A DNA stretch of 61,188 nucleotides from contig CALAJP010000181.1 in NCBI GenBank assembly GCA_937922815.1, forward strand, positions 1 through 61,188, read 5' to 3'. The DNA comes from an uncultured Saprospiraceae bacterium. GTDB lineage: Bacteria; Bacteroidota; Bacteroidia; Chitinophagales; Saprospiraceae. The notes beneath the pieces were generated by a model. That model worked only from the letters and a program-made list of their open reading frames with translations, ran no database searches and was not told where the DNA came from. Of this stretch, positions 29,220 through 35,154 are shown piece after piece. The number at the start of each line of letters is the position of its first letter. Position 1 is the first letter of the stretch. The position numbers and the translations under genes were made by a program.

Positions 29220-29417
29220 TTTTATATATTTTTTAAAAATGTAAAATTTAACCTTAAATATTTAAGGTATATGTATTCAACGAATAGTTCTTAGTTATAA
29301 GGTGAAAAACCTAAGTAAAATGCACGTGATTACACTTTATTAGATTAATAATAACAGAATAGTAACATATTCAGTTACGAATATAATGTGAAAAATAAAA
29401 AGAAATATTTGTTTGAA

Positions 29418-31671: not shown

Positions 31672-32412
31672 TTAAGTATTAAGCCCTCCACAAATACTAA
31701 TCGTTTGTCCTGTTATATAGGTAGAGCTATCTGAACCTAAAAACACACATAAATCAGCAACTTCTTCTCCTTTTCCTAACCTATTGAGAGGAATACCAGA
31801 TAAAAACTGTGATTTAGTATTTTCGTCTAATTTATCTGTCATATCTGTTTCTATAAATCCAGGAGCGACAGCGTTACATCGAATATTCCTAGACCCCAAC
31901 TCTTTTGCTACTGACTTAGAAAAACCAATGACTCCAGCTTTTGAGGCTGAATAATTTGTTTGACCAGCATTACCAAAAACACCAACTACTGAAGATAAAT
32001 TAATAATAGAACCTGACCTTGCTTTAAGCATTGTTCTTAATACATTCTTGGTTAAGTTAAAAACTGATTTCAAGTTAGTTTCAATAACTGCATCCCAATC
32101 GGACTCTGACATTCTTAACATCAAATTATCTTTCGTAATTCCTGCGTTATTTATTAATACATCAATTGTACCAAAGTCTGCTAATACGGATTTTACTAAT
32201 GTTTCTGCTGCTGAAAAGGAACTGGCGTCAGAAGAGTATGCTTTTATTTTCCCAAAACTGGACAACTCGGCTACCAATTCTTCCGATTTTTGTGCATTCG
32301 AACGGTAAGTAAATGCTACAGATGCTCCTCTTTTCATATATTCCTTAACAATTGCAGCTCCGATTCCTCTTGACCCTCCAGTTATTAATGCAACTTTATT
32401 CTCTAAATTCAT
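31672..32412 (-). CDS. fabG: 3-oxoacyl-[ACP] reductase
   Basis: FabG reduces 3-oxoacyl-ACP with NADPH in fatty acid elongation. The 246-residue SDR shows TGGSRGIGAAI (cofactor loop), NNAGITKDNLMLRM, the catalytic Ser in LSSVVG and Tyr-x-x-x-Lys in QTNYSASKAG, and the C-terminal GFIETDMT. The length and the NNAGITKDNL block favour FabG over other SDRs. It lies 25 bp upstream of the histidine-kinase-like gene and 30 bp downstream of the S24 repressor, so the three may share a transcript. Confidence 0.92.
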   Translation of the reverse strand: MNLENKVALITGGSRGIGAAIVKEYMKRGASVAFTYRSNAQKSEELVAELSSFGKIKAYSSDASSFSAAETLVKSVLADFGTIDVLINNAGITKDNLMLRMSESDWDAVIETNLKSVFNLTKNVLRTMLKARSGSIINLSSVVGVFGNAGQTNYSASKAGVIGFSKSVAKELGSRNIRCNAVAPGFIETDMTDKLDENTKSQFLSGIPLNRLGKGEEVADLCVFLGSDSSTYITGQTISICGGLNT

Positions 32413-32441
32413 ATGTTTTGTTTTTTATAAAAAAGATAACT

Positions 32442-33110
32442 CTAATGTAAAGAATGTCTTGTAAAGCGTCCCTTTACTTTCAATATTTTTTTAATTTCTG
32501 TTTCTTCTATTTCGTACTCAGGATAAATTGGGTTATCAGAAATAAGCTTGAACTTAACGATACCTGTCCCTCGAATGTGTTGTATTCGTTTGACTACAGA
32601 AACATCGCCAATAATAACATGGATTTGATTATCTTTTAGCAATTTATAGTCATAAACTTCTTCACAGACCAACAAGTCTCCATGTCTAATCGTAGGGTAC
32701 ATACTGTCCCCTTCTGTTCTAAATGCTACATGTGGACCTTGGACACCGGGTATTCCAAACTTAATAATATCAACTTCGCCTTCTTCTATATTTATTCCTG
32801 TTCCTGCTAACACTTCTTTATCTACTAGTTTTATATTATCCAGCCAGTTTTGTCCTGATTCGCTTTTTTGAAAAATTTGATCCGACAAACCAAAAATAAA
32901 AGATGGGTTAATATTAAAATTATAAAACAATTTGTTTAACTGATCTATCGTAACAGAGCGATTCCCTTTTAAAATATTATTAATAACATGGTTGTAAGTG
33001 TTTAATTTCTGAGCTAAATCACTTTTGTTTTCAATTATTTTGTTCTTCAACAAACAATCATAAACATCTGAAAATCTTCTATTTATTGGGTTATCAGTAA
33101 ATTTATTCAA
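32442..33110 (-). CDS. HTH/S24 LexA-like repressor
   Basis: I start at TTG 33110 (222 residues, LNKFTDNPINRRFSDVYDCLL). A longer frame to 33254 would add 48 hydrophobic residues that do not fit. An XRE-type helix-turn-helix (about 15-70) is followed by an S24 peptidase-like domain (about 110-222). The Ser-Lys dyad is in EGDSMYPTIRHGD (Ser136) and VSVVKRIQ (Lys174). The VLAGTG segment is a possible self-cleavage site (Ala-Gly). This resembles phage CI/LexA-type repressors that respond to DNA damage. It is divergent from the GH73 gene. Confidence 0.82.
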   Translation of the reverse strand: MNKFTDNPINRRFSDVYDCLLKNKIIENKSDLAQKLNTYNHVINNILKGNRSVTIDQLNKLFYNFNINPSFIFGLSDQIFQKSESGQNWLDNIKLVDKEVLAGTGINIEEGEVDIIKFGIPGVQGPHVAFRTEGDSMYPTIRHGDLLVCEEVYDYKLLKDNQIHVIIGDVSVVKRIQHIRGTGIVKFKLISDNPIYPEYEIEETEIKKILKVKGRFTRHSLH

Positions 33111-33146
33111 AATATTATTATTTTTTTGTTTTAAAAAATAAATAAT

Positions 33147-33163
33147 TAAAACAATTTGTTTTA
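33147..33163. promoter_or_regulatory. 17-bp palindromic operator candidate
   Basis: TAAAACAA-T-TTGTTTTA is a perfect palindrome with 8-bp arms. It lies between the divergent repressor and GH73 starts and overlaps the left end of the -7-like element TATATTTG (33162-33169) on the plus strand. A half-site TTGTTTTA recurs at 33126-33133, and an imperfect copy AAACGAATTTGTTT lies at 33201-33214. The arrangement suggests repression of GH73 and autoregulation by the S24 protein. Confidence 0.55.
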
Positions 33164-33169
33164 TATTTG
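33162..33169 (+). promoter_or_regulatory. -7-like promoter element for the GH73 gene
   Basis: TATATTTG matches TAnnTTTG. No TTG is present at the ideal -33 distance, which would fit a weak or activated promoter. Transcription would begin near 33176, leaving a leader of about 135 nt. Confidence 0.45.
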
Positions 33170-33310
33170 TGCTAAGTAACCACAATATACAAAAAAACAT
33201 AAACGAATTTGTTTCTAAAAAACAGTTATTCAAAATTAGAAACCAACAAAGCATTCAAACAAGTTCATTTTAAAAACTTTACAATACTTAATACTTAAAA
33301 AGAACGAGTC

Positions 33311-34186
33311 ATGAAAAACACTAATACCTCTAACCACACAAAAACTAAAGACAACACTATTTTTGCTAGGGCGGAATCTACACCAATAGAATTTGGAGCC
33401 TTTAATTCTGAAAGTTCAGAAATGAGCACCCCTATTAACCCTATCAAGCTTTTAAAGGAATGGTTATGCCTAAAATACGAAGTCGCATCAATGGCGTTTA
33501 AGAATTTTATTGTTAAATTACCTTGGTTAAAGCTTTCTCTATTGTTTATGGTTGCATACTTATTTCTTTTCAAAGACTTAACATTTACGCTAGGCTTTAA
33601 AACTCCGCACGAGGTAGTCGGAGATGATCAAGAGTCGAGACAGATGGAAAATACCGTAAGTCTAGGGTCTATTGGAAGTATATTCAAATCTAAAGACCCC
33701 ACTAAAGTAAACGAATTTGCACCTGCTGAAGTAAACGCTATCGGCTTAGATGCAAAAGGATATATCAAAAGATATGCAAAAGTTGCTGTTTCTGAAATGA
33801 ATAAATTTGGTATTCCTGCGAGCATTAAATTGGCTCAAGCATTATTAGAAAGTCATGCGGGTAACAGTAGACTTGCAACGCAAAACAACAATCACTTTGG
33901 TATTAAATGTTTTTCAAAATCTTGCAAACCAGGGCACTGTGCTAACTTCGAAGATGATCATCATAAAGATTTCTTCAGAAAATACAAATCTGTTTGGGAA
34001 AGTTATCGCTCCCATTCTAATATGTTAGCGAATGGACGCTACAAAGTATTAAAAAAACATAAAAGAGATTATAAAAAATGGGCACAAGGGCTCAAGCAAT
34101 TAGGCTATGCAACCGATAAAAAATATGCGGAAAAGTTAATTAGGACTATTGAAAAATATAATCTAGATAAGTTCGACAAATATTAG
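33311..34186 (+). CDS. Membrane-anchored GH73 glucosaminidase
   Basis: 291 residues. A cytosolic N-terminal region of about 70 residues precedes one transmembrane helix (about 72-90). The C-terminal domain (about 150-291) is a glucosaminidase/muramidase of the FlgJ/GH73 type: PASIKLAQALLESHAGNSRLA, with Glu180 as the probable catalytic acid, and NNNHFGIKC at 192-200. It would cut peptidoglycan glycan strands on the periplasmic side. It has no LysM domain. It is divergent from an S24-type repressor, with a candidate operator over its promoter. Confidence 0.85.
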   Translation: MKNTNTSNHTKTKDNTIFARAESTPIEFGAFNSESSEMSTPINPIKLLKEWLCLKYEVASMAFKNFIVKLPWLKLSLLFMVAYLFLFKDLTFTLGFKTPHEVVGDDQESRQMENTVSLGSIGSIFKSKDPTKVNEFAPAEVNAIGLDAKGYIKRYAKVAVSEMNKFGIPASIKLAQALLESHAGNSRLATQNNNHFGIKCFSKSCKPGHCANFEDDHHKDFFRKYKSVWESYRSHSNMLANGRYKVLKKHKRDYKKWAQGLKQLGYATDKKYAEKLIRTIEKYNLDKFDKY

Positions 34187-34350
34187 ACGTTATTACGAAT
34201 TGGATTGTATGTGAGAACAAATAGAAATTTTTATTTCTATCAAGGAAAGCACGGAATCTAACACCCATAGGTATTAAGATGAGTGCTTGACGAAGAGTGA
34301 GGTAAAAAGAACATTTTTAATCCATATAAATTCATTTGTAATAATGTCTA
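34187..34350. other. Gap with possible RNA structure
   Basis: No gene is seen. An 8-bp hairpin with loop TTTT lies at 34221-34240 (ATAGAAAT/ATTTCTAT). A second possible stem joins AAGCAC (34247-34252) and GTGCTT (34283-34288) and encloses ACCCATAGGT. The region is less A+T-rich than other gaps. It may hold an RNA, but I cannot identify one. Confidence 0.3.
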
Positions 34351-35154
34351 TTAACTCCTTTTCCCTAATTGTATTTTTGCGAAAAAATTTAAATACAGAA
34401 ATCTATCATCATTAGCTTCAGGAACAAGAATTTCTAATGGTGTAAAAAATGCATCAATCATTATTCCTACATCCAATGATTTTATAAAAGCATCAAACGC
34501 TCCCCAGTCTAGGTGAATTGATGCTTTTGCATTTAGACCAGGTCTGATTTTAGCGTCGGAATAGCCTTTGAAACTAGGGCCTTTGCCCAAGATTGAATTA
34601 ACATCTAAAAACACGGGTGGGCTTGTTTCGTATATTATTTCTTGCTCTCCAGAAACCAATAGTTCGTTAGTATTTGCAAATACATTACTTACCGTAACGT
34701 TTAAATAGTAAGGTTTTTGAAGAGCAAGACTTGGCCCTCCCGAAAGGTTATACCCTACAGCAACTCCCTTCTTTTCAGCCTTGTCGGAAATAAATCGTTT
34801 GAACCCCCAACCTAACCTTGTTAATACAATTGAATTCTTTTTGCCAAAAGTGTAATTACTTCTTCCTGTAATCAACCCAATTCCACTTATCCCGTTGATA
34901 CTTTCCTTGGGATGCCTCAATGTTCCTATTTCTACTCGATAATAGTTTGTTCTATAGAATTTTTTGATTATTCCTTTTGAAAACCCTAGAAAAAAACCAT
35001 TTGTTTGAGCCGCAATATCAATTCCAAACTCATTGTCATAGACAACGCCTTTTTTAAAAATAGGGTTTTGATCTTCAGGAATTGTAACTTGAGCAATTAA
35101 ACTTTGGTAACTTATATTAAACAAAAATGCAATTATTATTATCCTAGCTTTCAT
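34351..35154 (-). CDS. Outer-membrane beta-barrel-type protein of unknown function
   Basis: 267 residues with a signal peptide ending SLIAQ (1-21). The mature part alternates polar and aromatic residues in strands typical of a small beta-barrel (GIDIAAQTNGFFLGFSKGI, YRVEIGTLRHPKE, GVAVGYNLSGGPSLALQKP) and ends with LYLNFFAKIQLGKRS. GIGLITGRSNYTFGKKNSI and LNAKASIHLDWGAF recall a conserved Bacteroidota hypothetical family, but I cannot name its role. It is divergent from the recO pair. Confidence 0.65.
   Translation of the reverse strand: MKARIIIIAFLFNISYQSLIAQVTIPEDQNPIFKKGVVYDNEFGIDIAAQTNGFFLGFSKGIIKKFYRTNYYRVEIGTLRHPKESINGISGIGLITGRSNYTFGKKNSIVLTRLGWGFKRFISDKAEKKGVAVGYNLSGGPSLALQKPYYLNVTVSNVFANTNELLVSGEQEIIYETSPPVFLDVNSILGKGPSFKGYSDAKIRPGLNAKASIHLDWGAFDAFIKSLDVGIMIDAFFTPLEILVPEANDDRFLYLNFFAKIQLGKRS

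Follow-up and report, generated by a model that had tools for sequence, protein, structure and literature searches.

Background

In the Bacteroidetes, CI-like S24 repressors known as non-canonical LexA proteins control the SOS response. Their motifs are CTAA-N5-TTAG and GGA-N5-TCC, with diverged motifs in some paralogs, and their targets include recA, umuDC, dinB, a dnaE2 cassette and parC/parE (main text of Sanchez-Osuna et al. 2021, PMC8565304). Here, an S24-family repressor gene that diverges from a gene for a GH73 glucosaminidase is described from an uncultured Saprospiraceae bacterium. The pair lies on contig CALAJP010000181.1 of assembly GCA_937922815.1, and "the window" below means the whole stretch analysed, 61,188 nucleotides (nt). 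It is likely that the S24 protein acts as SOS repressor in this Saprospiraceae lineage and that GH73 is an effector induced in the response.

The locus shares several traits with non-canonical LexA as presented in the main text of PMC8565304. Both combine an S24 peptidase with a CI-type helix-turn-helix (HTH), an Ala-Gly bond, a Ser-Lys dyad and dyad operators with a spacer of five, and both have the operator before core SOS genes (here recA, and in relatives also umuD, dinB and parC). Unlike the published system, this one has the motif TAAAAC-N5-GTTTTA, a list of sites rich in GH73 genes and an apparently separate clade in the tree.

A parallel in gene arrangement is offered by YneA, SosA, DivS and ChiZ. 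These SOS division inhibitors are encoded divergently from lexA or near it. ChiZ is reported as a wall hydrolase, and LysM is present in YneA and ChiZ and absent from DivS and SosA (consulted sections of PMC6851548 and PMC3989709). The GH73 gene is likewise divergent from its repressor gene, and its product is apparently membrane-anchored, as are those extracytoplasmic proteins. Unlike YneA and ChiZ, it has a GH73 domain and no LysM match, its repressor is of the CI type, and dispersed GH73 paralogs carry the operator. The host is presumably of the Gram-negative type, unlike the hosts of the four inhibitors.

Two further comparisons can be made. HdiR and UmuDAb are also non-LexA S24 repressors recruited to SOS control; according to the main text of PMC8565304 they control mainly error-prone polymerases, whereas wall hydrolases dominate the sites examined here. 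The Pseudomonas endolysin Lys causes SOS-dependent, explosive cell lysis. It too is a peptidoglycan hydrolase under SOS control, as is predicted here, but its gene lies in a pyocin/prophage cluster, and its access to the periplasm is proposed to require a holin (consulted sections of PMC4834629).

In the paper collection searched, queries on Saprospiraceae or Lewinella with the SOS response, LexA or DNA damage found no paper, and neither did searches pairing S24 family peptidase with glucosaminidase in Bacteroid- taxa. Among the matches listed for SOS, LexA and peptidoglycan hydrolases, no title or abstract beginning names a GH73 SOS system, and among those listed for SOS division inhibitors of Bacteroidetes only the title of PMC8565304 names that phylum. 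In the main text of PMC8565304 the strings saprospir, glucosaminidase, hydrolase, cell wall, murein and lewinella are absent; cell division is mentioned once, in the introduction.

The repressor-GH73 pair

The main features of the locus are as follows.
32442-33110, minus strand: S24-family repressor gene, 222 residues, TTG start at 33110; CI-type HTH (by fold) and Peptidase_S24 domain; A102-G103; S136-K174
33311-34186, plus strand: GH73 glucosaminidase gene, ATG start at 33311; hydrophobic stretch at about residues 72-88, read by eye
33147-33163: operator TAAAAC-AATTT-GTTTTA (TAAAACAATTTGTTTTA), a dyad with a 5-nt spacer about 40 nt from the repressor start, as in relatives
33162-33169, plus strand: -7 element TATATTTG of the GH73 promoter, overlapping the right half of the operator
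33126-33135, plus strand: upstream half-site TTGTTTTAAA (TTGTTTTA at 33126-33133), conserved, between the repressor start and the operator

An initial annotation of this DNA had proposed that a self-cleaving S24 repressor controls the divergent GH73 gene through a palindrome and in response to the signal that cleaves it, such as DNA damage. Its sequence elements are present as described: the palindrome is perfect over 17 bp, with 8-nt arms and one central base, and it overlaps the -7 element. The core of the proposal is supported by comparison with relatives, in which the pair, the operator, the cleavage residues and operators at recA, umuD, dinB and parC recur.

Some S24 match was found in 148 of 150 genomes of the same family. 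Orthologs were defined by E < 1e-70 against a profile of the 30 best loci, the window included, which gave 47 loci in 47 genomes. A divergent GH73 gene stands beside the repressor in 39 of these 47 loci, against none of 20 loci of other S24 paralogs. Named genomes were scanned with two short conserved peptides; 84 relatives were confirmed and 80 kept, two of which have no flank and were left out. Divergent GH73 is present at 69 of the 78 named loci with enough flank. Because the two sets overlap, they are not independent.

The named relatives are mostly titled Saprospiraceae, or Phaeodactylibacter, Lewinella, Saprospira grandis, Flavilitoribacter or Aureispira, which we take to belong to that family; others are titled only Saprospirales, Chitinophagales, Bacteroidetes/Bacteroidota, Bacteroidia or bacterium. 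Carriers of the pair include Phaeodactylibacter xiamenensis KD52, Lewinella cohaerens DSM 23179 and Flavilitoribacter nigricans DSM 23189. Among 198 sampled genomes of the class, no match from outside the family is better than E 4e-40; the window protein has 8e-90. By these comparisons the repressor belongs to a Saprospiraceae clade.

Four ortholog loci without a neighbouring GH73 were viewed by eye: three have a small divergent protein and one an acetate kinase gene. The small protein (L026, L029, L031) has about 105-130 codons and a lipoprotein-like start with a Cys, read by eye, followed by an HTH_3 domain that Pfam matches in L031 alone. This is an odd pairing of an export signal with a DNA-binding domain.

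The pair could also be the remnant of a prophage repressor-lysis module, an idea in keeping with the PHROG matches of its proteins (transcriptional repressor for the S24 protein, endolysin for GH73). The genes around it are chromosomal (a fabG-like short-chain dehydrogenase/reductase, RecO, a desaturase and a polyprenyl synthetase), the repressor is found across 39 genus codes, and the pair is kept at most ortholog loci. A prophage origin of this kind is very improbable.

An Rfam scan of 32400-34400 gave no match reaching the gathering threshold.

The operator

Operator conservation was assessed in the ortholog promoters and in 75 distinct intergenic regions, in which identical regions were counted once and loci without a GH73 start excluded. 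The repressor start at TTG 33110 is supported by an ATG at the same place in the other 74 of these regions.

The operator has the consensus TAAAAC-N5-GTTTTATATTTG and is situated inside the GH73 promoter, roughly 40 nt away from the start of the repressor gene. Conservation of the palindrome in relatives had been suggested as a check. TAAAAC-N5-GTTTTA with at most one mismatch is present in 27 of 47 ortholog promoters (window counted) and in about 1% of shuffles, and AAAC-N5-GTTTTATATTTG, which includes the -7 element, in 26 of 47 and in no shuffle at the same tolerance. Among promoters of S24 paralogs the two patterns occur in 1 of 21 and 0 of 21.

Position and spacer are also conserved. AAAC-N4/5-GTTT stands 25-65 nt from the repressor start in 64 of the 75 distinct regions, 59 of these at 38-43, and the spacers of 33 sites are A or T at 164 of 165 positions. 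For scoring, 33 of the 39 operators at GH73-bearing loci were combined into a weight matrix, six with more than four mismatches being dropped. Scores of at least 12 are reached at 62 of 69 GH73-bearing named loci and at 1 of 9 GH73-less ones (Fisher 2e-6, kinship ignored; the matrix was trained on overlapping species). Judged from these loci, operator and GH73 neighbour are lost jointly.

In 48 regions both a TTG and TAnnTTTG were found, and in 43 of them the TTG stands 20 or 21 nt before TAnnTTTG. The Bacteroidetes promoter consensus is TTTG near -33 and TAnnTTTG at -7 (consulted sections of PMC7366714). Because the spacing matches, the operator is taken to occupy the -7 region and the spacer of the GH73 promoter. 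The half-site pointed out in the initial annotation is conserved too: 54 of 64 regions have a TGTTT between the repressor start and the operator (0.165 by shuffling).

The published motifs were tried as operators and rejected. Neither CTAA-N5-TTAG nor GGA-N5-TCC has an exact match within about 200 nt in any of the 47 ortholog promoters, and neither is clearly above shuffles there.

Three further elements of the locus are listed here.
33187-33198, minus strand: degenerate counterpart of the conserved element ATACAAAAAGTT, 3 mismatches, read on the repressor strand as AAAC-N5-GTATnTTTA; weak in the window
33201-33214: imperfect copy AAACGAATTTGTTT, 6-nt spacer
32923-32939: second operator copy TAAAACAATTTGTTTAA inside the repressor gene, 1 mismatch, 224 bp from the operator

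The first is the window's version of a second conserved element, TAAAGATACAAAAAGTTTC, about 30 nt before the GH73 start; on the other strand it reads AAAC-N5-GTATnTTTA. Its core, with at most two mismatches, is present in 46 of the 75 distinct regions and in 3.2% of mononucleotide shuffles. It is probably the repressor's own promoter with a weaker operator.

The imperfect copy exists as annotated but is not conserved: with its spacer of six it corresponds to AAAC-N6-GTTT, present in only 9 of the 75 regions, and it was dropped as a part of the operator.

The copy in the repressor gene had been missed. It is palindromic through the codons AAC-AAA-TTG-TTT (Asn-Lys-Leu-Phe), so it may be a coding coincidence; 15 of the 25 S24 genes having NKLF write it as AACAAATTGTTT. 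An operator for loop formation and a coincidence are both possible.

In L255, L261 and L272 the operator has a spacer of four (TAAAACAATTGTTTTA), and the GH73 there has Ala replacing the catalytic Glu.

The repressor protein

The residues of the S24 protein suggest that it can cleave itself. A102, G103, S136 and K174 are shared by all 20 of the 20 orthologs aligned, which bears out the annotated Ser-Lys dyad and Ala-Gly bond, and the segment TYNH, part of the presumed recognition region, is likewise invariant. PF00717 is found in all 20. HTH families of Pfam (HTH_19, BetR, HTH_3, HTH_26) match weakly and in at most 4 of the 20 each, and the LexA winged-helix domain has no match among them at E 0.01.

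When solved structures were searched by sequence, the window protein had no meaningful match (best E 0.52). The predicted model, with a mean predicted local distance difference test score of 78 and a poor linker, can be compared by fold. Foldseek matches it to LexA bound to DNA at E 2.6e-6. The lambda repressor bound to RecA gives Z 13.4 with a root-mean-square deviation of 2.6 over 118 residues, and LexA gives Z 13.2. The N-terminal part matches lambda CI (Z 8.1) and TP901-1 CI (Z 7.5) at a middling level. In fold, LexA and CI repressors are thus the best matches of the modelled S24 protein.

In a tree of 65 S24 proteins, the repressor clade (94/89) groups with Saprospiraceae paralogs, among them the second S24 protein of this genome. 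A branch with support 99/97 parts it from the clade that includes the five S24 genes with exact CTAA-N5-TTAG upstream; these five stand in for the published clusters, and the bootstrap had not fully settled. The repressor is LexA-like but may lie outside the published non-canonical LexA clade.

The regulon

The operator is also found before genes of the SOS response. A site scoring at least 12 precedes 25 of 48 recA genes in ortholog genomes, compared with 3.1% of shuffles. For recA genes of family genomes in which no ortholog was detected, the figure is 3 of 30 (Fisher 2e-4). Such sites precede umuD at 7 of 11 loci, 2 of 13 being too short to score, and dinB at 14 of 23. In a second dinB-like paralog group there are none (0 of 7).

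In the window's own genome the pattern AAAC-W5-GTTT-N2-4-TTTG has three matches: the GH73 promoter, a site 47 nt before recA, and a site on contig C237. A control pattern has three matches as well. That two of the three real sites fall on the GH73 promoter and recA is not expected of chance. The C237 site (L393) lies between a SnoaL-like gene and a divergent gene for a VanY-type carboxypeptidase lipoprotein, 12 nt from the start of the latter. Since the control pattern matches as often as the real one, this site is within chance expectation and is not claimed for the regulon.

These results bear on the idea that the S24 protein is a repressor private to GH73, serving envelope or developmental control and answering to a ligand or an antirepressor rather than to DNA damage, with the recA and umuD matches as AT-rich look-alikes. 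The idea would fit the own genome, where just three sites equal the control and no dinB or umuD homologs were found at the cut-offs used, and also the dominance of GH73 genes among the examined sites. It is improbable in view of the operator before the genome's own recA, the frequencies at recA, dinB and umuD, which exceed those of shuffles, the empty second dinB group and the recA genes of genomes without a detected ortholog, and the invariant cleavage residues. The GH73-operator switch of the initial annotation is supported, but it is not private: in relatives it is part of a regulon.

Seventy of the 135 strict sites (at most one mismatch) in the 47 genomes were examined, 30 fetched by search and 40 chosen mostly for A/T spacers. 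Away from the repressor gene, 34 of 51 sites with A/T spacers precede GH73 genes, 28 of those by 2-94 nt. Nine precede recA (1), umuD (1), parC (3), a dnaE-type polymerase gene (2) or a PBP1A-type synthase gene (2), one of each kind being confirmed by Pfam and the repeats by eye. The other eight have no evident link. Where the spacer contains G or C, 2 of 8 sites precede GH73.

PBP1A-type peptidoglycan synthase genes stand behind the operator in two genomes, at L377 (by Pfam) and L091 (by eye), hinting that wall synthesis and hydrolysis may be coordinated. The site is also kept at dispersed GH73 genes (L380, L381, L351, L089) of G057, G021 and G126, genomes whose repressor gene lacks a GH73 gene beside it.

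Genomes without a detected ortholog also contain the motif, with 51 sites in 47 genomes, of which 30 were examined. Sites before GH73 genes there (L399, L400, L401, L403, L404, L407, L408, L412, L424 and L425) could be read as a sign that AAAC-N5-GTTT belongs to another global regulator and that the S24 gene is merely one of its targets. This is quite improbable, given that 64 of the 75 distinct regions have the motif at a distance of 25-65 nt to the S24 start, and given its form, an N5 dyad being the type bound by S24 SOS regulators of the Bacteroidetes (main text of PMC8565304).

Two of these genomes have features of their own. G059 has a site at C281:6032-6052, upstream of a different S24 gene (C281:5263-5889) whose product may take the role of regulator in that genome. 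G036 has an apparent cut-off ortholog at a contig end, though it is grouped with the genomes lacking one.

Points against the SOS interpretation

Several results weigh against reading the locus as an SOS switch, and the palindrome itself is one of them. Palindromes with arms of at least 8 number two in the window, against an average of 5.5 over 20 dinucleotide shuffles. When the 200-bp intergenic region was shuffled 2000 times, 9% of the products contained one; on its own the palindrome thus proves nothing. It is within chance, and conservation carries the case. The promoter of the window also lacks a TTG 20-21 nt before TATATTTG, unlike its relatives.

The pair and the regulon are not uniform either. 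Eight of the 47 ortholog loci have no neighbouring GH73. The recA promoters score below 12 in 23 of 48 cases and below 8 in nine of these, and the recA regions used as control, those of genomes without a detected ortholog, are somewhat less AT-rich (0.66 vs 0.71). Enrichment of strict sites over the 47 genomes is only moderate, 135 vs 77 in the reversed control. In the genomes without a detected ortholog, 10 of the 30 examined sites precede GH73; another S24 protein may share the motif there, or the assemblies may be incomplete, which makes the comparison of genomes that have the repressor with those that lack it weaker than ideal. In all counts, related genomes are treated as separate cases.

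A search of the genome for further copies of the literal 17-mer, which had been proposed, gave no excess: with at most two mismatches there are 10+8 copies, compared with 17+13 in the reversed control. TAAAAC-N5-GTTTTA with at most one mismatch is rarer in the own genome than in the control (89 vs 143 per strand), and among 16 loci inspected 11 of these dyad sites lie inside reading frames.

Two side observations concern other dyads of this genome. At L045, on contig C25, the one-mismatch dyad TAAAACAACAAGTTTAA lies 93 nt before a gene resembling, by eye, a GH3 glycosidase. The sole further palindrome in the window with arms of at least 8 is ACCTTAAATATTTAAGGT at 29251-29268, just 5' of an alpha-2-macroglobulin-like gene.

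The GH73 effector

The only Pfam domain found in the window GH73 is PF01832 (E 1.6e-35, 122.9 bits against a cut-off of 30.2), and LysM has no Pfam match in it. The hydrophobic stretch at residues ~72-88 is probably membrane-spanning. The protein contains the Glu of QALLESHAG, which we take to be the catalytic Glu of GH73. Of the 101 GH73 rows scored from repressor loci, 93 have this Glu; some of these loci hold a second GH73 that is counted as well, and eight further rows have gaps.

Dispersed GH73 genes with the operator are different in this respect. Only 19 of 36 have the Glu, 15 have another residue, and two were left unscored by the pattern. The Glu is replaced by His, Gln, Leu, Ala or Ser in L092, L093, L113, L117, L118, L356, L365, L366, L371, L374, L376 and others. 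These paralogs are probably inactive wall-binding proteins under the same control.

Two roles for the effector can be considered. It is most likely, by analogy with ChiZ and YneA, an effector of a division or septation checkpoint. This role is favoured because the product looks membrane-anchored and because paralogs without the catalytic Glu share the operator.

Alternatively, the same regulator could control an enzyme that lyses cells or breaks filaments, as Lys does in Pseudomonas, instead of arresting division. This is less likely, though it has some merit. GH73 is related by profile to phage endolysins, the Glu is kept in most GH73 rows from repressor loci, and SOS-dependent lysis by an endolysin has been published (consulted sections of PMC4834629). 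As for filament breaking, several Saprospiraceae are filamentous. Lysis is harder to reconcile with the apparent membrane anchor, with the fact that no holin was noticed among the reading frames read, and with the operator-bearing paralogs in which the catalytic Glu is replaced (15 of 36, two more unscored); for such Glu-less proteins, binding or scaffolding fits better.

Proposed mechanism

Promoter occlusion, RecA-triggered cleavage and derepression are established features of LexA and CI repressors. Together with the conserved residues, they suggest how the switch would operate. In an undamaged cell, an S24 dimer on the operator would block the GH73 promoter and, via the second site, its own promoter. 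DNA damage would load RecA on single strands, leading to cleavage at Ala102-Gly103. The GH73 gene, recA and the repressor gene would then be derepressed, and membrane-anchored GH73 would act on peptidoglycan. Of these steps, what finally happens to the wall is the least certain.

Significance

The conserved operator that the repressor shares with GH73 is also found ahead of repair genes such as recA, so that cell-wall remodelling in this family is probably set off by DNA damage.

Division arrest or reshaping after DNA damage in Bacteroidota is not described in the main text of PMC8565304, the SOS study of the phylum. A family-wide repressor-hydrolase pair together with a recA operator is a concrete candidate for such damage-linked division control, and it is available in named strains.

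The arrangement suggests that SOS repressors are repeatedly found beside a wall-acting effector, in Firmicutes, in Actinobacteria and now perhaps in Bacteroidota. It also suggests that phage-type repressors have been recruited to SOS control more often than known. More tentatively, the S24 repressor that runs the SOS response of Saprospiraceae may represent a third phage-type class, set apart from the two groups published for Bacteroidetes, and may have the remodelling of peptidoglycan as its main output. This would act via a family of membrane-anchored GH73 proteins, both active enzymes and Glu-less paralogs, and would constitute an unrecognised division or filament-breaking checkpoint in the phylum.

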